Source: Imperialibacter roseus
Lineage (GTDB): Bacteria; Bacteroidota; Bacteroidia; Cytophagales; Cyclobacteriaceae
Length of the DNA stretch: 64,000 nt
NCBI RefSeq assembly: GCF_032999765.1
Contig: NZ_CP136051.1
Location: 2,704,417-2,768,416, forward strand
Direction: 5' to 3'
The position numbers were made by a program, and so were the translations under genes. This document shows positions 4,384 to 13,639 of this stretch, piece after piece. Below the pieces are notes generated by a model. That model was given only the letters and a program-made list of their open reading frames with translations, did not search any database and had not been told where the DNA came from. How positions within the stretch are numbered: the stretch's first letter is position 1; the number at the start of each line of letters is the position of its first letter.

Positions 4384-5844
4384 CTAACCTTCTAGCTTTA
4401 ATCTAATTTCTTTAAAGCTTTCCAAGGCTCCTTCAATATTCTCAATTATCTCATTAGATAATTCGTGCGGATCAGGTAAATTGTCCAAATCTAATATACT
4501 GTCATTACGTAGCCAGAAAATATCTAAGCTCGTTTTATCACGATTTAAAAGTTCTTTTCGTGAATACTTTCGCCAACGACCTTCAGGATTTTCTTGTGAC
4601 CATGTTTCTTTTCTTTTGGTGAGATCAACGGAATGATATAACTCTATAAACTCCTTTAAATCTGTGGCTTTGAGAGGATTCTTCTTTGGAGTATGGTTAA
4701 TATTAGTTCTATAATCATAATACCAAACTTCTTTAGTAGCTGATTTTACTGACTCTTGAGGTTTATCAAAGAAAAGAACATTTGCTTTTACTCCTTGGGC
4801 ATAAAAAATTCCAGTTGGAAGTCGTAGAATAGTATGTAAGTTGGTTTCTTCCAATAGTCTTTTTCTGATAGTCTCTCCGGCTCCCCCTTCAAACAGCACA
4901 TTATCAGGAAGAACTACTGCTGCACGACCATTATTTTTCAACATTGCAACTATATGTTGTAAAAATGCTAGCTGTTTATTACTAGTTGTTACCCAGAAAT
5001 CTTTTCTAAGAAAATATCCATCTTTTTTAGACTGCTCTATATCAATGGTTGGAATATCACTACTACTCACTCCAAATGGAGGATTCGCCAATACAATCGA
5101 CACCTTTTCATTTTCTTCAACTTCTCCATTAATTCCACGTTTTAGACTGTCTGTAACTTGTATGTCAGGAGTTTCTTTTAGGTCACCTACACCATGTAGA
5201 AAGAGATTCATTAAACACAAACGAGCCGTAGATTTCTCAATTTCCCATCCATGGAATGCTTTGAATTTTAGAAAATTAGCCTCTTCCTTTGATAATTGCT
5301 TTTCACTTAAATGATTCAAGGCGCCAAGAAAGAACCCACCGGTACCACAAGAAGGATCGGCAATGGTTTCCATGGGTTTTGGGTCTATACAGGTTATCAT
5401 CGCAGAAATAACAGACCGAGGAGTAAAGTACTGACCCGCACCACTGTTTTCAGCATTTTTCTGAAGAAGTGATTCGTAGATTTCTCCTTTGATATCTACG
5501 TCCTGATTTGTCCAATTTTCACCATCAATGAGCTTAATTAATCTTTTTAATTTAACTGAATCATGAATTTTATTCTGTGCACCGGCAAAAATCTTACTTA
5601 ACATTCCACCGGCACTAGATAATCTTTTTAGAAGATTTTCATAATCTTCTATGATCTGAACACTCGTTAAAATTGTTTGCCAATCGCATCTTTTAGGCAA
5701 GTTATATTGACTCTTATTTTCATCCGCCATTTTAAGGAATAGCAAAAAAGTCAATTGCTCCAAATAGTCACCGTATCCAAGTCCGTCATCTCTAAGTGTA
5801 TCACAGAATGACCATATTTTCGCTATTAAATTATTTGTTGCCAT
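4384..5844 (-). CDS. hsdM: Type I restriction-modification DNA methyltransferase subunit (HsdM)
   Basis: An N6-adenine DNA methyltransferase of 486 residues. It has the helical HsdM N-terminal domain, the GQYFTPR motif near 137-143, the SAM-binding motif ADPSCGTGG at about 162-170 and the catalytic NPPF near 254-257. These are intact, so methylation activity is expected. With HsdS it would methylate a bipartite site. It is the last gene of the five-gene operon, starting 4 bases after the PD-(D/E)XK gene stops. In classical type I loci hsdM sits next to hsdS or hsdR, but here three other genes separate it from hsdS. No HsdR helicase is present in the window. The gene is AT-rich compared with the RND gene beside it, consistent with transfer. 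Confidence 0.93.
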   Translation of the reverse strand: MATNNLIAKIWSFCDTLRDDGLGYGDYLEQLTFLLFLKMADENKSQYNLPKRCDWQTILTSVQIIEDYENLLKRLSSAGGMLSKIFAGAQNKIHDSVKLKRLIKLIDGENWTNQDVDIKGEIYESLLQKNAENSGAGQYFTPRSVISAMITCIDPKPMETIADPSCGTGGFFLGALNHLSEKQLSKEEANFLKFKAFHGWEIEKSTARLCLMNLFLHGVGDLKETPDIQVTDSLKRGINGEVEENEKVSIVLANPPFGVSSSDIPTIDIEQSKKDGYFLRKDFWVTTSNKQLAFLQHIVAMLKNNGRAAVVLPDNVLFEGGAGETIRKRLLEETNLHTILRLPTGIFYAQGVKANVLFFDKPQESVKSATKEVWYYDYRTNINHTPKKNPLKATDLKEFIELYHSVDLTKRKETWSQENPEGRWRKYSRKELLNRDKTSLDIFWLRNDSILDLDNLPDPHELSNEIIENIEGALESFKEIRLKLEG

Positions 5845-5848
5845 GTTT

Positions 5849-7666
5849 CTAAATTTCTGAGATTATTTCCTCTTGCTCAATATCAAAATGGATATAGGAA
5901 AAAGGAAGCTTAATAAAATTCTTTAGATGATTAAGGTAGTTTCTAACTTCACCTGACGGTGCCACATGAGAAACCAAAACAATACATTGGGCTTCATTCA
6001 CATTGGGATATAGAGAATATTCCAACAACTGCCCAATTCCTTCTCTAATTGAAGTTCTCAAACTGTTGTAAGTTTTGATTTCATAAAATATATAGCCAGT
6101 GTCGGTTTTTCGGGTCACGTCAATTCTTGATGCCCCATAAGCCATACACTCCCGTTTCACAATTGCTTTACCATACTTCTTCTGAAGGTATTTCAAAAAT
6201 TTGGTTTGCAGAATATTGTGTTTTAACTCGAGTTCAATCTCTCTCTTTCTACCGGTTCTTTTGCTTTTTGTACCCAGATCAGCTTCCTCACTGCCTGTGT
6301 CTTCGAATGAAAATCCTGTTTTTACACTATCCTTAATTTTTTCCTGCAGATCGGACGGCAGATCCATTAAAGTGTATCGATTGGATGCAATTTCATTATC
6401 GTTCAATACAGGAATTAGCTCCGCTGGGATTTCATTGAGTTGAGCGGCTTTGAACTTCACATTGAACAACTGTTCTGCACCTTCTTTAATCCATGTGTCT
6501 AACTGACGAGAATCCAGGTTAAGATTGTACAGATCGGCTTTCATTTCATCATACCAACCTTCTTTTCTATAGTGCGCTAATATCTTTTCTGATTCTTCGG
6601 GTAAGAGGACTTCAACATCTTTCAGGTTGGTAACCCAAAAACTTTTGTTTGATTCCGCATCTCTGGTGTAAAGCGTAAGGTCAAAAATTTGACCTTCATA
6701 CTTTGAGCGATATTTATGAATCGGTTCTAGAAAGCCATACTTATAGCCCTCAATCACTTTGTCTCCATCGAATAGCCATTCCTCATGACCAAAACCATGC
6801 TCATTTTCAAAACTCGGATTGGTTGATTTACCTGTTAAACCGGACGGCTTTATCCATCCGTTGGTGTTCCAGGTGATGCGGGCAATTTTGGATTCTTTAG
6901 AAAGTATTTCTTTTAAGTAATCATGATTTGCTATTTGCTCCTCAATATATTCTTTGGTCTCCTTTATTAATCTTTCCCAATTATAATTGTGTATTTCATC
7001 AAATGAAATCTTCCACCATCTCCAGCTATTTTTAGGGTCATCTTTGAATTGCTTTAGAATTTCAAGTTTTGAATCTGAAAGTTTCTTGGTGGTGGCGTGA
7101 TAACCATCTAGCTTAAAGCCAATAAATCTATCGTAAGCTGCTACCTCAGCATTAAAAAAAATATCATTGTCTTCCCCTTTATAAATTCTAGGCCATAAAT
7201 AGTCAACTACCTTTGTGTTTGTCCCAAGCCAACGACCATCATATCTTATTTTGAATCCTACTAGCTTCACTTGTTCAAGCCAGTATTTAAGCTTTGCATT
7301 TATTGGGTACAATTTCCTTCCATAATGCTCTTGATCTTTATTGGATTTCCTATAATCTTCATGATATATAGACTCATAAAAATCCAGTTCTTCCTTAGTA
7401 AAGAAATTATACCCTCCCTCATAATACTGAAATTCAAAACCTAAGTGATTTTCAACATATCCACGGTACGATTCATTGGATTGGAATTGTAATTGCTCTT
7501 CGGTGGCTAGTTCATAGGCGGTTCTTATCAGATGTTTAAACGGATACTCTTTGCCATTAACGACCACATAATATTGACTCCAAACATAGTTTTTGGGAAT
7601 GCCATGCGCATCTATGATGGCTGCAGCTTGCTCAATATGGCTTTTATGTAATGCTTCGAGTTTCAT
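5849..7666 (-). CDS. PD-(D/E)XK nuclease-like protein with putative DNA-reader domain
   Basis: A 605-residue protein of no family I can name with certainty. The C-terminus (about 475-605) has a restriction-like nuclease core: a helix with conserved charged residues, then RID516V and, after a short hairpin, E529-I-K531. This is the spacing of a PD-(D/E)XK active site. It is followed by a helix with an EGIGQLLEYS motif, common in Mrr/VSR-like folds. A middle domain at about 261-355 (NTNGWIKPSG, GFGHEEWLFD, GYKYGFLEP) looks like a compact, aromatic-rich reader domain, by inference one that senses DNA. The N-terminus (1-250) is unrecognised and rich in W and Y. No helicase motif is present, so it is not HsdR. 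It starts 5 bases after the ptuB-like stop and ends 4 bases before hsdM. It probably supplies DNA cleavage for this operon. Confidence 0.75.
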   Translation of the reverse strand: MKLEALHKSHIEQAAAIIDAHGIPKNYVWSQYYVVVNGKEYPFKHLIRTAYELATEEQLQFQSNESYRGYVENHLGFEFQYYEGGYNFFTKEELDFYESIYHEDYRKSNKDQEHYGRKLYPINAKLKYWLEQVKLVGFKIRYDGRWLGTNTKVVDYLWPRIYKGEDNDIFFNAEVAAYDRFIGFKLDGYHATTKKLSDSKLEILKQFKDDPKNSWRWWKISFDEIHNYNWERLIKETKEYIEEQIANHDYLKEILSKESKIARITWNTNGWIKPSGLTGKSTNPSFENEHGFGHEEWLFDGDKVIEGYKYGFLEPIHKYRSKYEGQIFDLTLYTRDAESNKSFWVTNLKDVEVLLPEESEKILAHYRKEGWYDEMKADLYNLNLDSRQLDTWIKEGAEQLFNVKFKAAQLNEIPAELIPVLNDNEIASNRYTLMDLPSDLQEKIKDSVKTGFSFEDTGSEEADLGTKSKRTGRKREIELELKHNILQTKFLKYLQKKYGKAIVKRECMAYGASRIDVTRKTDTGYIFYEIKTYNSLRTSIREGIGQLLEYSLYPNVNEAQCIVLVSHVAPSGEVRNYLNHLKNFIKLPFSYIHFDIEQEEIISEI

Positions 7667-7671
7667 AAAGG

Positions 7672-8568
7672 CTAGTTTTGGGCATTATCAGGTTCAGCTT
7701 CCTTTTCTGCTGGAATAATAAAATCAGCACAGATACTATCTACCTCTATTGATTCTTCTAATAATGCAAGTGCCCAATCTCGTCTAGATGCCCGAAGGCA
7801 AGCTCTTACGGTTGCAGAAAGCTCTTCGCATGGAGCAATGAGTTTTCTTATTTCCTCTAGTTTATTTTCTAATCTCTCTTCTTTCTTTGGTGAAGGTGCT
7901 GATTGGTAATCTTTATCAAGAATATCAACTTCCTGAATCAAGGTGTTACATTTTTTCCATTTGATGTGCCTTGCACTTTTTAAATCCGGGAAGTTTAAGT
8001 CTAGTTTTTCAATGGTGTATTTTGCTCGAATATGATCCCAATTAGTATCGACAGTGTTAGCAGGTTTCATTTCCCCATCTTCATTAACTATTAATTTTTT
8101 AGGGTCACTTTTTTTCGTGGGATCCAAAAAATAAATCACCTCATTTTCACAATCATCTTCAGGACACGTTGAACAATAAGCTTTTACAGCAAAGTGATCC
8201 AACTTTGAAGTGTTGCCTACACTACCTGAAATTCTGTAATTTTTATAATCGAAAGTAAACCACCAATAACCATCTCGTTCAACTTTGACACCAGATGTAT
8301 CGTCTATTGCCCTCTTCTTGGGACGAAAATGGTCTACATGATAATAGGAATAAATCTCTCTGGCTTCAGAGTACCAACACTTCCCATAAGATAGCTTCTT
8401 AAGCTCTTCTTTTAAAGCCTTCCAATGTTTTTGACTTGAATCCCTGTCAATTATCTTGTCTCGTTCAGTCTTATCGTCTCTATTGCCTATTAGTTCATCG
8501 AGAAGCACTTGAGATTTATCAAGCCACTCTTTTGATGGCGCTAATTTGTTTATGTCAATATAAATCAT
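7672..8568 (-). CDS. PtuB-like HNH endonuclease (Septu type)
   Basis: A 298-residue protein resembling the HNH nuclease of Septu (PtuB) and of retron-associated ATPase-HNH pairs. Visible marks are KCWYSEAR (61-70), the core VDHFRPKK (78-85), a YWWFTFDYKN stretch (101-110), N119-T-S-K122, and the family-typical block around ENEVIYFLDPTKKSDPKK (141-158). Usual PtuB proteins carry zinc-binding CxxC pairs. Here the first pair is C-x-x-S and the second (normally SCxxCN) reads SGSVGN, while a C-x-x-C occurs later at AYCSTC. So the catalytic His-Asn-like residues are kept but zinc binding may differ. Its ATG overlaps the stop of the upstream ATPase gene by 4 bases (ATGA), the usual PtuA-PtuB arrangement. 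Confidence 0.82.
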   Translation of the reverse strand: MIYIDINKLAPSKEWLDKSQVLLDELIGNRDDKTERDKIIDRDSSQKHWKALKEELKKLSYGKCWYSEAREIYSYYHVDHFRPKKRAIDDTSGVKVERDGYWWFTFDYKNYRISGSVGNTSKLDHFAVKAYCSTCPEDDCENEVIYFLDPTKKSDPKKLIVNEDGEMKPANTVDTNWDHIRAKYTIEKLDLNFPDLKSARHIKWKKCNTLIQEVDILDKDYQSAPSPKKEERLENKLEEIRKLIAPCEELSATVRACLRASRRDWALALLEESIEVDSICADFIIPAEKEAEPDNAQN

Positions 8569-10145
8569 GATTTCTTCTTCATCATTTTATTAACTATTTC
8601 TAGAGCTTTGCTCTTAATCTCGTTATTGCCACCCAACAATGATTCCTTTTTGTTACGTAGATATTTTTGGTAGGCAATGACAAATTCAGAATAAAGTGGA
8701 TCCTTGAATATTTGAGAAAATCCAGCACTGTTCAATACTTCATATAATTCTTTTAGCCTTTGCTCTTGTTGATCATTCAACTGGTTTTCACTTTCAAGAA
8801 ATAAAAGCTCATTTCTTTCATCTAATAACTGTTGTGTATCAGAGTCAAGTGTAGTAGGTAAGTCAAACAAATCACTAGTCAATATTCCGGCCACACCCAT
8901 TCCTTTGGGGTCGGCTTTTGGACTTTCTGTTTTAGTCTTTTTTGTTTCAGGATCAACTTTAAATAGTTGAACCTGTGACTTTACCATATTTCCAATCACC
9001 AAAGGATCATGTGAACAGAAAATAATCTGTGTGTTTTCCTTTCTTTTCACCACTCGATCCAGATAATCCAAGAACTTCCATTTCCACATGGGGTTCAAGT
9101 GGGTGTCGGGTTCATCTAAGAGGATTAAGGATTCCTCATCTTTTGTGAACTTTAGTAAGCCCAAAACTGTAAGCAATTGTTTTTCACCTTCACTTAGTTC
9201 AGACATAGACAACTCACCATCCACGCCTTCTTTCTGAACCTTGATTTTTACATCATGAAGCATATCGGAAATGTGAATACTCTCCAATGCATTGAATAAA
9301 ACAATTTTGTTCTTGTACTTATCCTCTGCTAAATCTAGGAAGGTAGATTTATCTCTTAGGTACAGATACAACCTATCTTGAGTCTCGTTCTTTTTGTAGG
9401 AAACTTCAACACGAGCCTTATGCTGAATTGGGGCATAGGAAAATAGCAGCAGATCGTTAACGAATTTTTCAACCAAACCATCGGCACCCCATAAATGTGC
9501 ATTTTTATCAGCCCTGCTTTTTGCCCAATCTGGTTCTTTTAGCATAAACAATGCTGAGCCAAAATCAGTAATTTTTAATTCCTCTTGAAGAAATCTAATC
9601 GTTTCATCACCTTGTTCTTCCTTGAACAGATAAAAAGCAATAAGGGCAAAATTCGCATGAATATTCTGAGCAAGAAATATTCTTCGAATTGTATCAAATT
9701 CTTCAATTTTTGCCCCAGCCTTTATTATTTGTTCATAATAAATCTTTTGGTGCGGAATGTATAAATCAGCAAGGCGATCGCTTATCCCTGAATAGTAGAT
9801 AAAAACGTGTTTGGGTAAATAATGCTCTATGTTTTTTGTAACCGCAGTTGTTTCGGTTTTTCCATTTACCACAAAGGCATATTTACCTTTTTCAAAGGTG
9901 ATTTCAATGGCATTGCCGCGGCACTCATATTTGATGTAATAGTCGAAAGGTTGCTGTGCCTTTCTATTGTGATTATAGATCAAATCCAAATCACGAAAAA
10001 TAATAACCAAGGCCTCAAGGAAATTGGATTTACCGGTAGCATTGAGACCCAGTAACACGGTTTCCCAGGCATTTTCATCAATATCAATCTGAAAATCTTC
10101 CAGGTTTTTGAACCGTGTTTTGATATGTACCTTGTCTATTCTCAT
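8565..10145 (-). CDS. PtuA-like AAA/ABC-type ATPase (Septu type)
   Basis: A 526-residue ATPase of the SMC/ABC-like group used by Septu and related defence pairs. Walker A GLNATGKS is at 33-40, the signature LSEGEKQ at 317-323, Walker B LILLDEPD at 340-347, and the switch His is in CSHD at 377-380. All are intact. The C-terminus has the GILTSDLFDLPTTLDSD segment often seen in such ATPases, followed by a helical tail. In Septu, PtuA binds PtuB and controls its nuclease through nucleotide sensing. Here the neighbour gene downstream is a PtuB-like HNH protein, overlapping by 4 bases. Upstream, its ATG overlaps the hsdS stop by one base (TAATG). An ordinary DUF2813/OLD ATPase is less likely because no TOPRIM domain follows. 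Confidence 0.85.
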   Translation of the reverse strand: MRIDKVHIKTRFKNLEDFQIDIDENAWETVLLGLNATGKSNFLEALVIIFRDLDLIYNHNRKAQQPFDYYIKYECRGNAIEITFEKGKYAFVVNGKTETTAVTKNIEHYLPKHVFIYYSGISDRLADLYIPHQKIYYEQIIKAGAKIEEFDTIRRIFLAQNIHANFALIAFYLFKEEQGDETIRFLQEELKITDFGSALFMLKEPDWAKSRADKNAHLWGADGLVEKFVNDLLLFSYAPIQHKARVEVSYKKNETQDRLYLYLRDKSTFLDLAEDKYKNKIVLFNALESIHISDMLHDVKIKVQKEGVDGELSMSELSEGEKQLLTVLGLLKFTKDEESLILLDEPDTHLNPMWKWKFLDYLDRVVKRKENTQIIFCSHDPLVIGNMVKSQVQLFKVDPETKKTKTESPKADPKGMGVAGILTSDLFDLPTTLDSDTQQLLDERNELLFLESENQLNDQQEQRLKELYEVLNSAGFSQIFKDPLYSEFVIAYQKYLRNKKESLLGGNNEIKSKALEIVNKMMKKKS

Positions 10146-11869
10146 TATACCAGGCTTAATAAGGATTCAGTGCCTTTTTTCACTTCCTTGATTTTGGATT
10201 GAATGTCTTTTAGCTCCATATAAAAGTCTTCAATATTCTCCTTGTGCTTGCTCTTTTGCCATACATCTTTGGCAAGCATGGGTTTATCAGAAGTTTTGAG
10301 TACTTCTTCAATGCTCAGTTCTTTACTCATCTTCTTGGTATTTTTAGGTTTTCTTTTCTTCTGTTGTTTCTGCTGTTCCAGGTGCTTTTTCTTTTCTGCC
10401 TCTATGCGGTTTAGCAATTCCGAAGCAGGCTCATCATTGGGGTCTTGTGGCACCAATTTTCCTTCAAAGGCTTTCTTTAAAATTGATTGGCGAAGGGCTT
10501 CTGACTTTTGAAGGCCGGATTCAATTGTCCTTTCAAGATTTTCAACAACTGAAAACTGTGCATCAAGAATCTGAATTATTAAGTTTTGTTCTTCAATTGA
10601 TGGGATCACTAAAGGGGTCTGTCGTATAGTTCCCATAGATAGGGATGGTTGAGCCACAGCCTTTACGGTAACCATCAGTATGTCTTTTCCCATAGGAGAT
10701 TGGTAAAAGAACTCAAGATATTTGCTATCAATATTTCCATACGGCCTTGCCATACCAATGTTTGGCCCTAAGAAGTAATTAGAATACTTAGGTACGACAG
10801 CAACATTTCCTGTGCCCGCACCTACAAAAACCACAAGTAATTCACCACCGCTTAGCCGAGATCTTTTCAAATTTGAGACGGTCTCTGACTTAATCCTTGA
10901 ATAGTCTGTTCTTTTAAAACCATTGGGACCAGCATTCTCAGCTTTAATTACTGACAAGTCTCCATCTTCATCATAACTGACGTATTTGGTGTACTCAAAA
11001 CCAGCAAGCTTAGTTATGAAGGTAACTAAACCTAGCTGAGACCAATCCCAACCTTTAGGTAATTCCCATTTTTTACTTTCATGAAAATCATTTGGTTTTT
11101 CGGGAACAATTGGTTTGCTAGGCCTTGAAGGTCTTTGTTCTTTCTTCCCATCCTTCTCCCAAGCCTTCACTGCAGCTTTCCAGTCTTTGAGTTCTTGTTC
11201 GTAGCGTTTTTTGCGTTCTTCTTTGATGCGTTCCAGTAGTTTTTCTGCGGGTTCAGGCTTGTTTTCTTTGCGCCATTGCTCAGTGAGTTTGCCTTCAAAA
11301 GCATGTTTCAACAAAGCCTGCCGATAGACCTTCAATTGGTTTTGTGCCAATTTGAGATTGGCCATCCCATTGTCCAAATCGCTGAAAAGTTCTTCGATTT
11401 TGGAAACGATACGTTGTTGTTCGTTGAGTGGGGGAAGAAATATTGAAATGCTTGCAAGGTTGGAACTAGAAATTGCCTTAAAAGTTGTTCCGGTTCCTAG
11501 GTCTGAGATTTTATTTTCAATCGACCTTAATTGAAATAGTAAAAATTTACTGTGCATCCCCGAAAAACTTTTTATTCCTGCAAGCCCCCTTCCAATAGAG
11601 CTTTTTTCAGGTGCTAAGTTTGTAGGCCCTACAGGTGCTCTTACAGATATAAGAATATCGTCTTTGTCAACTATTTTTAGTGGATCACTACAAAATTTGT
11701 TAATGTATGGATATAGCTCTTGAAATTCCGTCTTTCCTTGAAAAAATGGCAAACCAATACCCTCATTGTTATATGTTGAAGATGGTGGTGATTGCCCCAT
11801 ATTCAGATAAGTAATATTACCCAAATCTTGGACTACCCAACCAATAGGTATTTCAGAATTCTTATCCAT
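10145..11869 (-). CDS. hsdS: Type I restriction-modification specificity subunit (HsdS)
   Basis: A 574-residue specificity subunit with two target-recognition halves. Half one covers about 1-145 and ends in LPPLNEQQRI, followed by a helical spacer with LLKHAFEGKL (186-195). Half two covers about 265-420 and ends in IPSIEEQNLI, followed by ILKKAFEGKL. The paired repeat helices set the spacing of the bipartite DNA target. The C-terminus is extended beyond the usual end by about 60 residues: a lysine-rich linker (about 485-513), then a small helical domain (515-574). This may dock a partner. It is the first gene of the operon, and its ATG directly follows the TAG of a short upstream reading frame. 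The target sequence cannot be predicted from the protein by eye. Confidence 0.93.
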   Translation of the reverse strand: MDKNSEIPIGWVVQDLGNITYLNMGQSPPSSTYNNEGIGLPFFQGKTEFQELYPYINKFCSDPLKIVDKDDILISVRAPVGPTNLAPEKSSIGRGLAGIKSFSGMHSKFLLFQLRSIENKISDLGTGTTFKAISSSNLASISIFLPPLNEQQRIVSKIEELFSDLDNGMANLKLAQNQLKVYRQALLKHAFEGKLTEQWRKENKPEPAEKLLERIKEERKKRYEQELKDWKAAVKAWEKDGKKEQRPSRPSKPIVPEKPNDFHESKKWELPKGWDWSQLGLVTFITKLAGFEYTKYVSYDEDGDLSVIKAENAGPNGFKRTDYSRIKSETVSNLKRSRLSGGELLVVFVGAGTGNVAVVPKYSNYFLGPNIGMARPYGNIDSKYLEFFYQSPMGKDILMVTVKAVAQPSLSMGTIRQTPLVIPSIEEQNLIIQILDAQFSVVENLERTIESGLQKSEALRQSILKKAFEGKLVPQDPNDEPASELLNRIEAEKKKHLEQQKQQKKRKPKNTKKMSKELSIEEVLKTSDKPMLAKDVWQKSKHKENIEDFYMELKDIQSKIKEVKKGTESLLSLV

Positions 11870-12216: not shown

Positions 12217-12792
12217 TCATCTGTTATCTTCAACTGTGGCTCTAAATAATCCCTCAATATCAACCTCTTCGCCTTTAAGATGCTGGTAGTAGGTGGACAG
12301 AATAATGCGCGACATATTGTCTGGGTGCACAATTCCTTTTTGCTTGAAGTACCTTGCAAGCCTGGATCCTGCCCAAAGTCCCCAATTGTTCCTCATCCAG
12401 AGTCCGGCTCCGAAGTGTTGCCCTACCGTAAAATCTTGCTGAGTTTGTTTGGTTACCCACGATTTAGCGTCTTCAGACCAATCATAATTGAGTGCCCGCC
12501 AGCAGTCTTCCAGATCTACCGGAATATATGTGCCTCGAAGCGTGTCTGTCGTTGCAATATTTTCACTCTGGAGATCCCATTTTCTTTCAATTGCTACGTA
12601 TTGCTTCACTAGGTTGTCCTCGTCACGGCTTTGTCCAAGTAATTCACGATGAAAGGCTTTAAAGATCACTTCGGTAATTAGACCGTTTTCGGTTAGTCCC
12701 ATTCTTTTGAATGTGCGCTCCAATTTTGATGTCTTTTGTGATCTAAAGAATTTTTCGTCGACAAGGCTGCGAAATTCAGAACTCCGGTTCAC
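12217..12792 (-). CDS. DUF6794-like protein of unknown function
   Basis: A 191-residue soluble protein. The segment from about residue 90 on (IPVDLEDCWRAL, then H of GQHFGAG, MRNNWGLWAGSRLARYF, HPDNMSRIILSTYY) matches what I recall of the DUF6794 family, often found in accessory regions. Its role is unknown. The only start in frame is GTG at 12792, directly preceded by a run of nine G on this strand, and the frame closes upstream at TAG. An internal ATG (codon 31, MGLTENG) is a possible alternative start. It lies upstream of the defence operon on the same strand but about 350 bases away, so it is probably not part of it. Confidence 0.6.
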   Translation of the reverse strand: MNRSSEFRSLVDEKFFRSQKTSKLERTFKRMGLTENGLITEVIFKAFHRELLGQSRDEDNLVKQYVAIERKWDLQSENIATTDTLRGTYIPVDLEDCWRALNYDWSEDAKSWVTKQTQQDFTVGQHFGAGLWMRNNWGLWAGSRLARYFKQKGIVHPDNMSRIILSTYYQHLKGEEVDIEGLFRATVEDNR

Positions 12793-13175: not shown

Positions 13176-13595
13176 TCAGGGAGTGCTGCCGTTAGTCGGC
13201 TCGGGTGGCATGGTGCCGTTGTTGATCCGCTTAAAGTCAGCTGCCTGAAGCGTTCTCATAAAGATTTTACCTGGCTTGAACCTTACGGTGGTTGCCAGGA
13301 TATTACTCTTTTTGAACTCTTCGGGGGTGGGGGCTCCTAAGGACTTGACACTAGTGTAAAAGGTACCCAAGTCCCCCAGCCTGACGATTTTGCCATCGGC
13401 CAGCATTTTGGGAATCATGGTAAGCAAAGCTTCTACCACAGCCATGCTGTCGGTAGGTGTTACAGTAGATCTTTCAGCGATTTCCTGCGAAATACCCTGC
13501 TGGTTAACTTCTCCTGTGGCATTCACCACGGCATAGAACTTTGCCGGCGCACTCTGGTCGATGGGTTGAATAAAGACCTTTGTCGCTCCGATCAT
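13176..13595 (-). CDS. HU-family (HIG type) DNA-binding protein
   Basis: A 139-residue protein with the Bacteroidota HU-like pattern: a KFYAVVNATGEV beta start, a helical half with ISQEIAERSTV, then VVEALLTMIPKMLADG, the KIVRLGDLGTFYTSVKSLG beta arm and RFKPGK near the end. This group is thought to bind DNA as nucleoid-type proteins. The only sensible start is ATG at 13595, which lies within the stem of the inverted repeat 13594-13639, so start access could depend on RNA folding. No Shine-Dalgarno sequence is visible. It stands alone, with a terminator downstream at 13001-13024. Confidence 0.8.
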   Translation of the reverse strand: MIGATKVFIQPIDQSAPAKFYAVVNATGEVNQQGISQEIAERSTVTPTDSMAVVEALLTMIPKMLADGKIVRLGDLGTFYTSVKSLGAPTPEEFKKSNILATTVRFKPGKIFMRTLQAADFKRINNGTMPPEPTNGSTP

Positions 13596-13639
13596 TAAAG
13601 GGGTTACCCTTGCAGAGTGGCGAGAGTAACCCCTTTAAT
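13594..13639. repeat. Hairpin repeat, copy 1
   Basis: ATTAAAGGGGTTAC (13594-13607) and GTAACCCCTTTAAT (13626-13639) are perfect 14-base inverted arms around an 18-base loop (CTTGCAGAGTGGCGAGA core). A near-identical copy lies at 22260-22305, and the match extends over the loop and about ten flanking bases (TTTGGCT). The left arm overlaps the HU-like start codon. Confidence 0.85.

Follow-up and report, generated by a model that had tools for sequence, protein, structure and literature searches.

A type I methylase operon of Imperialibacter roseus that carries a Septu-like PtuA-PtuB pair without a neighbouring hsdR, and an HsdS C-terminal tail that follows PtuA

Background

Defence genes are known to be embedded in type I restriction operons, for example DarTG2 in E. 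coli (PMC12255303, available part). PrrC is another example: this nuclease is encoded within a type I operon, and the enzyme sequesters it until inhibition sets it free (PMC12707154 and PMC3874165, available parts); in K. quasipneumoniae the PrrC locus has the order HsdR, HsdS, PrrC, HsdM, and the PtuAB pair of retron Ec78 cuts tRNA rather than DNA (PMC11555353, available part). PtuA and PtuB also form the Septu system, whose trigger is left unsettled in the available parts of the Septu literature. Type I methylases without HsdR, for their part, are easily dismissed as orphans. Here we describe an operon of Imperialibacter roseus in which a type I methylase and a Septu-like pair occur together, found in a stretch of 64,000 nucleotides of contig NZ_CP136051.1 (positions 2,704,417 to 2,768,416; hereafter the window), and compare it with its relatives and with the systems above.

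Organization of the operon and its close relatives

The list of open reading frames (ORFs) of the window gave five genes on the minus strand at 4384-11869, in the transcription order hsdS, ptuA, ptuB (HNH), PD-(D/E)XK gene and hsdM. The hsdS and ptuA genes overlap by 1 base (TAATG) and ptuA and the HNH gene by 4 bases (ATGA); 5 bases separate the HNH gene from the PD-(D/E)XK gene, and 4 bases the latter from hsdM. A preliminary description of this DNA had reported the same five genes and tight junctions, and both the ORFs and the family matches confirmed them.

The hsdS gene (10145-11869) encodes a type I specificity subunit of 574 aa with two target-recognition domains (Methylase_S, 2.8e-28, in two stretches), and hsdM (4384-5844) an N6-adenine methylase subunit of 486 aa (N6_Mtase, 3.9e-72; HsdM_N, 3.5e-11) in which the motifs DPSCGTG and NPPF are intact. 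These three Pfam families place HsdM and HsdS among the type I subunits, and the two probably make up a type I-like adenine methylase, by which host sites would be marked. Between them, ptuA (8565-10145) encodes an ABC/AAA ATPase of 526 aa (PADLOC PDLC00293, 1.1e-165) and ptuB (7672-8568) an HNH nuclease of 298 aa (PDLC00333, 1.3e-81), the best PADLOC models for the pair being PtuA1 and PtuB1; by these models, the adjacent and overlapping genes have the composition of Septu. PtuA has GLNATGKSN, LSEGE and ILLDEP, which we take to be the Walker A, signature and Walker B motifs, all intact. The PtuB motif CWYSE...VDHFRPK was present in 12 of 12 scanned loci, as DHYWPK in one. In a search of solved structures PtuA matched the PtuA of retron Ec78 (5.3e-7) and PtuB matched PtuB weakly (0.061). 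The two proteins are thus likely to form a Septu-type ATPase-HNH nuclease complex. Phage records searched with PtuA gave no relative.

A tblastn search of the window with the HsdR of one relative gave no hsdR, nor did an HsdR profile in its first 22 kb or the genome search near the locus, so that the locus lacks the HsdR of a type I system, as the preliminary description had said. The G + C content of the operon genes (35-39%) is below that of the left neighbour (51.7%) and of the whole window (46.1%); therefore, the five-gene operon was very likely acquired horizontally.

A peptide-pattern scan of an 84,980-species collection with the nuclease protein found four relatives, in Flaviramulus (L002), Mongoliibacter (L003), Brumimicrobium (L004) and a metagenome-assembled genome of Bacteroidia (L005). 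The order hsdS-ptuA-ptuB-nuclease-hsdM is kept in all four, and since the same coupled genes recur in the same order in every relative found, the five-gene arrangement is not chance. In L003 and L004 a complete hsdR (926 and 916 aa) abuts hsdS upstream, the HsdR of L004 matching Pfam ResIII, EcoEI_R_C and HSDR_N. The preliminary description had put PtuAB and the PD-(D/E)XK protein in place of HsdR: this stands for the window and two of the four relatives, and fails for the other two, where the hsdR that it had named as counter-evidence does lie beside the locus. The other arrangement it had named as such, a sporadic PtuAB insertion without the PD-(D/E)XK gene, was not seen among the close copies. 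After the operon of L005 lie ORFs (L005:14539-20825) that by eye resemble conjugative-transfer genes, which suggests a mobile carrier.

The HsdM proteins fall into two types. HsdM of the window is 91-92% identical to those of the two hsdR-less relatives (L002, L005) and 59% to those of the hsdR-bearing pair; identity is 89-92% among the HsdM of the three hsdR-less operons and 95% between those of L003 and L004, which share 58-59% with the hsdR-less type, and all 20 other fetched relatives are 52-58% identical to the hsdR-less type. Judged by these identities, the hsdR-less HsdM is a separate lineage.

The HsdS C-terminal tail

In contrast to the variable recognition domains, the last 115 residues of HsdS are 84-97% identical across the five close loci. 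Within this ending, an HTH-like tail of about 61 aa, starting at an internal Met (10148-10330, minus strand), directly precedes ptuA. Comparable HsdS endings were seen in L035 and L036 and in the plasmid loci L026, L027, L028 and L030. A model built from the five close loci only gave a clear match to L035 (4.7e-8) and to no other. We therefore built the model repeatedly with one group left out, and searched every ORF of the fetched loci with it. As best non-training hits these searches recovered the five close loci (1.6e-7 to 4.8e-6), L035 (6.3e-9), L028 (3.5e-5), L026 (7.5e-5), L030 (0.0022) and L027 (0.0031). One tail family across 10 of the 11 loci is supported by these matches, for some of the loci weakly.

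The 11 tail loci group with L029 in a single clade of the PtuA tree (support 100/98). To explain the distribution of the tail, 2 changes are needed on this tree versus 6 on the HsdM tree, or 1 versus 4 when only the six best-supported loci are counted. On this tree comparison the tail is inherited with ptuA rather than with hsdM.

A model of the ten tails matched strongly (E ≤ 9.1e-23) in 3 of 395 Bacteroidota genomes, those of I. roseus, G316 and G174, all three of which are in the model; the next matches among the 395 genomes were 0.001 or weaker, in frames of 69-199 aa. As hsdS is present in 265 of these genomes, the other HsdS proteins are without the tail at that sensitivity. Pfam HARE-HTH was matched by 4 of 10 tails, weakly (best E 0.0091, below cut-off), so that 'HTH-like' is a lead only, and a search of solved structures with the tail gave nothing credible (best 0.0021, PscE).

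The operon L059, which has no PtuAB, bears on the origin of the tail. Its gene order is hsdR-hsdS-DUF1016-hsdM. Its HsdR shares 95.8% identity with the L003 protein, and its HsdM shares 93-95% with the counterparts in L003 and L004 (95.3% with that of L004). The HsdS of L059 runs parallel to those of L003 and L004 through a lysine-rich stretch and ends about where the tail would begin. In L003, a DUF1016 remnant of 146 aa (65% over 156 columns) lies between the nuclease gene and hsdM. The simplest reading of these comparisons is that an L059-like operon acquired a block made up of the HsdS tail, ptuA, ptuB and the nuclease gene.

PtuA next to hsdS, with and without hsdR

PtuA family PDLC00293 was present in 24 of the 395 Bacteroidota genomes (E ≤ 1e-20), and 25 of 26 PtuA places were examined (G342:C347 was left out). 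The next gene upstream of ptuA was hsdS in 20 of the 25 loci. The remaining five comprise two ptuA at contig ends (L046, L047), two after methyltransferase-like ORFs and one ptuA-ptuB pair around which no hsd gene was found (L057). All five PtuA matches on plasmids (E ≤ 1e-20), from Pantoea, Roseomonas, Vibrio vulnificus and twice Pseudoalteromonas, were beside hsdS, and the association spans two phyla. Both gene orders occur, hsdS-A-B-hsdM and hsdM-hsdS-A-B; in L029, a Mrr-type nuclease follows ptuB. The survey and plasmid loci together support the view, already put forward in the preliminary description, that HsdM, HsdS and PtuAB form one unit.

The 20 hsdS-ptuA loci have hsdR within about 9.5 kb in 10 cases and lack it in 9 (window included), and 1 is undecidable. 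Counts of decidable loci, here and below, exclude the contig-edge loci L049 (survey) and L064 and L069 (controls); L040 is counted as hsdR-less with only 1.9 kb of contig before hsdM, and L044, whose hsdM did not pass the ORF filter, as hsdR-bearing. Nearby hsdR was absent in four of the five plasmid loci, and on the other side of the record start of L028 none is annotated. As controls we took 20 loci of HsdM relatives from 41 non-window rows, mostly from the top and not chosen for PtuA. Here hsdR lay near hsdM in 16 of 20, the other 4 including 2 contig edges, and two (L062, L065) also had a PtuA-like ORF. Because varied ORFs fill the position between hsdS and hsdM in these controls, it is a general cargo slot. 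Among the tail loci, hsdR was absent in 9 of 11. The share was lower among decidable controls (2 of 18, Fisher p 2.5e-4) and among PtuA loci without the tail (6 of 17, Fisher p 0.024).

In G316, a genome in a single contig, the order is hsdM-hsdS(tail)-ptuA-ptuB, and Methylase_S matches only once at E ≤ 1e-8. Probing it with PF04313 gave a 363-aa frame only and no full-length HsdR, the HsdR of L041, a locus with an HsdM related to that of G316, found only pieces in a 513-aa frame, and PF08463 found nothing, a three-probe negative that leaves room for HsdR families outside the probes. By these searches, G316 seems to be without HsdR altogether. Evidently, a neighbouring hsdR is dispensable for the arrangement.

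Several other survey loci differ from the window in composition. The I. roseus genome has a second operon (L038, C1:3228500-3247500) of hsdR-hsdM-hsdS-PtuA-like-HNH-like genes; next to it is encoded, downstream, a 304-aa protein that matches DUF5655 and, weakly, NucS_C. L039, L040, L048 and L056, in which no hsdR was detected, combine a PtuA-like ATPase with HsdS and a long HsdM (703-774 aa). In L048 and L056, HsdM reaches 294-297 bits to MAD2 (cut-off 720); the four loci form another methylase-ATPase group, between MADS and that of the window. In L055 and L058 the PtuA-like protein is 742-743 aa long, is also matched by the HNH set and is followed by a separate HNH-type gene, and the ORFs preceding it look by eye like methyltransferases.

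Exchanged parts and the PD-(D/E)XK-like protein

Residues 1-395 of PtuA are 79-91% identical to those of L002, L004 and L005; the remainder of PtuA is 24-25% and the HNH protein 24-26% identical to the same three. DNA identity drops between PtuA codons 376 and 426 and recovers at the start of the nuclease gene. The PtuA C-terminal part, from about residue 391 (8568-8975, minus strand), and PtuB seem on this pattern to move as one cassette, and such joint exchange would be expected if the two touch. Divergence from L003 is more even (PtuA 1-395, 58%; PtuA C-terminus, 33%; HNH, 27%). Further exchanged blocks are both HsdS recognition domains, residues ~100-250 of the nuclease (window versus the rest), and hsdM, together with hsdR. 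Compared in 150-base steps, the HsdS recognition parts have 26-41% DNA identity to the four relatives, and the spacer and C-terminal steps mostly 77-95%. The exchanged PtuA-HNH block and the HsdS tail are the points that go beyond the preliminary description.

The PD-(D/E)XK-like protein (5849-7666, minus strand; 605 aa) is 73-80% identical to those of the four relatives, and its gene is single-copy in the 6.75 Mb, one-contig genome of I. roseus. It matched no Pfam or NCBIfam family at E ≤ 0.1, PADLOC giving only LmuA at 0.054, and a search of solved structures gave nothing credible (best E 0.4). The nuclease name comes from a pattern recognised by eye, D516...E529-x-K531, which is invariant in 5 of 5 aligned copies. 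The protein can be divided into an N-terminal part, a variable region (~100-250), a middle domain (~258-440) and a nuclease-like C-terminal part (~450-600). In the proteins scanned, no Pfam family covered the middle domain (GFGHEEW; window 6347-6895). Its partners differ between proteins, being PD-(D/E)XK-like domains in some and Pfam HNH domains in others (L033:4998-6026 and L034:4998-5921). Because it is joined to HNH domains elsewhere, it is possibly an undescribed DNA-reader domain. Standalone homologues of the C-terminal half, of about 350 aa, also exist. BLAST with the operon's proteins found no hsd or ptu neighbours beside them, and they therefore do not extend the operon. No relative of the nuclease was found in viral contigs, by a scan with the nuclease alignment, or in phage records.

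The preliminary description had counted this protein as part of the operon. That is right for 5 of 5 close operons, and the gene is absent from all 7 other loci of the window's PtuA clade; the PD-(D/E)XK gene is therefore optional cargo.

Proposed mechanism and alternatives

Our working model, to which we give slightly less than an even chance, is that the methylase marks self and that the HsdS tail tethers PtuAB, which as effector replaces or backs up HsdR. The operon would be read as one transcript, and HsdM and HsdS would methylate the host's own sites as a self-mark. The HsdS tail, encoded just before ptuA, would serve as an adapter and tether PtuAB to the methylase. Contact of the methylase with unmodified target sites would activate PtuA, and PtuB would then cut nucleic acid, doing the job of HsdR. 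PtuAB would act alone in hsdR-less operons and beside HsdR in the others, with the PD-(D/E)XK-like protein as an optional extra nuclease. Tethering, methylation as self-mark, trigger and target are steps that we infer. A broader form of this model seems possible and is held more loosely: an HsdR-free, modification-dependent class of immunity in which an HsdS docking tail recruits PtuAB, and HsdMS recognition and self-marking gate an effector whose PtuA C-terminus and PtuB are exchanged as a cassette.

Several observations weigh against this model. In 2 of the 11 tail loci (L003, L004) hsdR adjoins hsdS, and the genomes of the window, L002, L005 and G174 hold other HsdR-like genes. When relatedness is counted, 3-5 of 6 HsdM-tree-independent pairs agree with the link between tail and missing hsdR and none opposes it (p 0.06-0.25, not significant). 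The tail of L036 was not recovered by the leave-one-group-out model and is assigned by position and eye, and the HsdS of L029, in the same PtuA clade, was not matched by the tail model. AlphaFold models from 5 sequences had a mean pLDDT of 37.9 for HsdS and 36.0 for the nuclease; values below 38 lend no structural support to a winged helix in the tail or to the domain division of the nuclease. Finally, since retron PtuAB cuts tRNA, the target of PtuB here may be other than DNA.

Next in weight, and in our judgement rather unlikely, is that PtuAB acts as a guard: by analogy with PrrC or PARIS, it would be a sentinel silenced by HsdM-HsdS through the tail, and a phage antirestriction protein or DNA mimic would release it to cause cell death or arrest. 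The PrrC precedents, of which that of K. quasipneumoniae occupies the same slot, fit this reading, as do the tRNA nuclease activity of retron PtuAB, the varied ORFs between hsdS and hsdM in HsdM relatives, and the hsdR kept in two close relatives. However, hsdR-less operons and G316 offer no cognate restriction to inhibit; without HsdR a guard has only a bare methylase to guard, which would then be bait. We prefer PtuAB as effector because hsdR-less forms are common and G316 seems to be without HsdR.

It is improbable that a complete Septu system and a separate nuclease merely occupy the cargo slot of an hsdR-less type I operon with no functional coupling. Type I operons can embed defence genes, as DarTG2 illustrates, varied ORFs do fill this slot in HsdM relatives, and L057 has its ptuA-ptuB pair apart from any hsd gene found, but PtuA directly follows hsdS in 20 of 25 loci and in two gene orders, the HsdS tail tracks PtuA phylogeny, and L059 lacks the tail as well as PtuAB.

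Subunits can be shared between type I systems, and a distant hsdR acting in trans might complete an ordinary type I enzyme, with PtuAB as a side system. HsdR-like genes occur elsewhere in the I. roseus genome (two long ones, plus a 143-aa frame that gives a third HSDR_N match), in L002 and L005 (other long HSDR_N proteins) and in G174 (an 826-aa HsdR on another contig). The two long genes of I. roseus, however, are 24-32% identical to the HsdR of the nearest hsdR-bearing relatives and each lies near its own hsdM, the genomes of L002 and L005 gave no match to the L004 HsdR at E ≤ 1e-5, and G316 showed no full-length HsdR with three probes, which makes this explanation very unlikely. We give just as little credence to a decaying system, in which recent loss of hsdR left the methylase with hitch-hiking genes: hsdR does stand beside the operon in L003, L004 and L059, but all five frames are open, the HsdM, PtuA and HNH motifs are intact, tblastn showed no hsdR remnants in the window, and the hsdR-less HsdM, as a separate lineage, argues against recent loss of hsdR from the L004 type.

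If PtuAB is gated by HsdMS through the tail, at least one Septu group would have a defined trigger, a set of 'orphan' type I methylases would be accounted for, and restriction could be built from exchangeable recognition and effector parts.

Neighbouring features

An ORF with DUF6794 (window 12217-12792) lies on the same strand 347 bases upstream of the operon and was not seen as part of the unit. A 20-base inverted repeat (window 13594-13639; 90% complementary, 6-base loop) is located at the start of ORF 13176-13595.

Comparison with known systems

The preliminary description could not name a system built in this way. The general kind is known: NCBIfam TIGR04435, 'restriction system-associated AAA family ATPase', already records restriction-associated AAA ATPases, a sister group in which a PtuA-like ATPase likewise directly follows hsdS (e.g. 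L043, L050 and L054, 531-829 bits). The PtuA of the window belongs to another PtuA clade and scores 127.2 bits, below the cut-off of 300, and the tail model did not match the HsdS of L043, L050 or L054. MADS, too, pairs an AAA ATPase with type I-like methylase and specificity subunits, and the operon has PADLOC matches to mad2, mad3 and mad5; however, MAD2 reached 116.3 of 720 and MAD3 32.3 of 420 bits, other PADLOC models score higher, and no further mad model was among the matches listed. Nor is the operon a retron of type I-A (Ec78-like), as NF041760 scored 51.6 of 500 bits and the five operon genes and the next ORF upstream matched no reverse transcriptase family.

Like a type I restriction-modification system, the operon has HsdM and a two-domain HsdS, and two of its relatives have hsdR; it differs in that hsdR is absent here, in 9 of 19 decidable survey loci (window included) and in 4 of 5 plasmid loci. 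EcoprrI-PrrC and the K. quasipneumoniae locus resemble it in having a nuclease within a type I operon, and in the latter the hsdS-hsdM slot is used as well (PMC11555353, available part). PrrC, however, is one protein beside a complete restriction enzyme, whereas here the effector would be a two-protein one with no hsdR. An HsdMS with PtuAB and without HsdR was not found described in titles and abstract openings of the open literature (preprints and most subscription papers lie outside this scope), in which an HsdS tail was looked for only under HARE-HTH. With Septu it shares an adjacent and overlapping ptuA and ptuB with intact ATPase and HNH motifs; the available part of PMC8565338 on Septu mentions no hsd link, whereas the pair described here lies between hsdS and hsdM and overlaps hsdS by one base. 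The new element is the C-terminal tail of HsdS, which follows PtuA.

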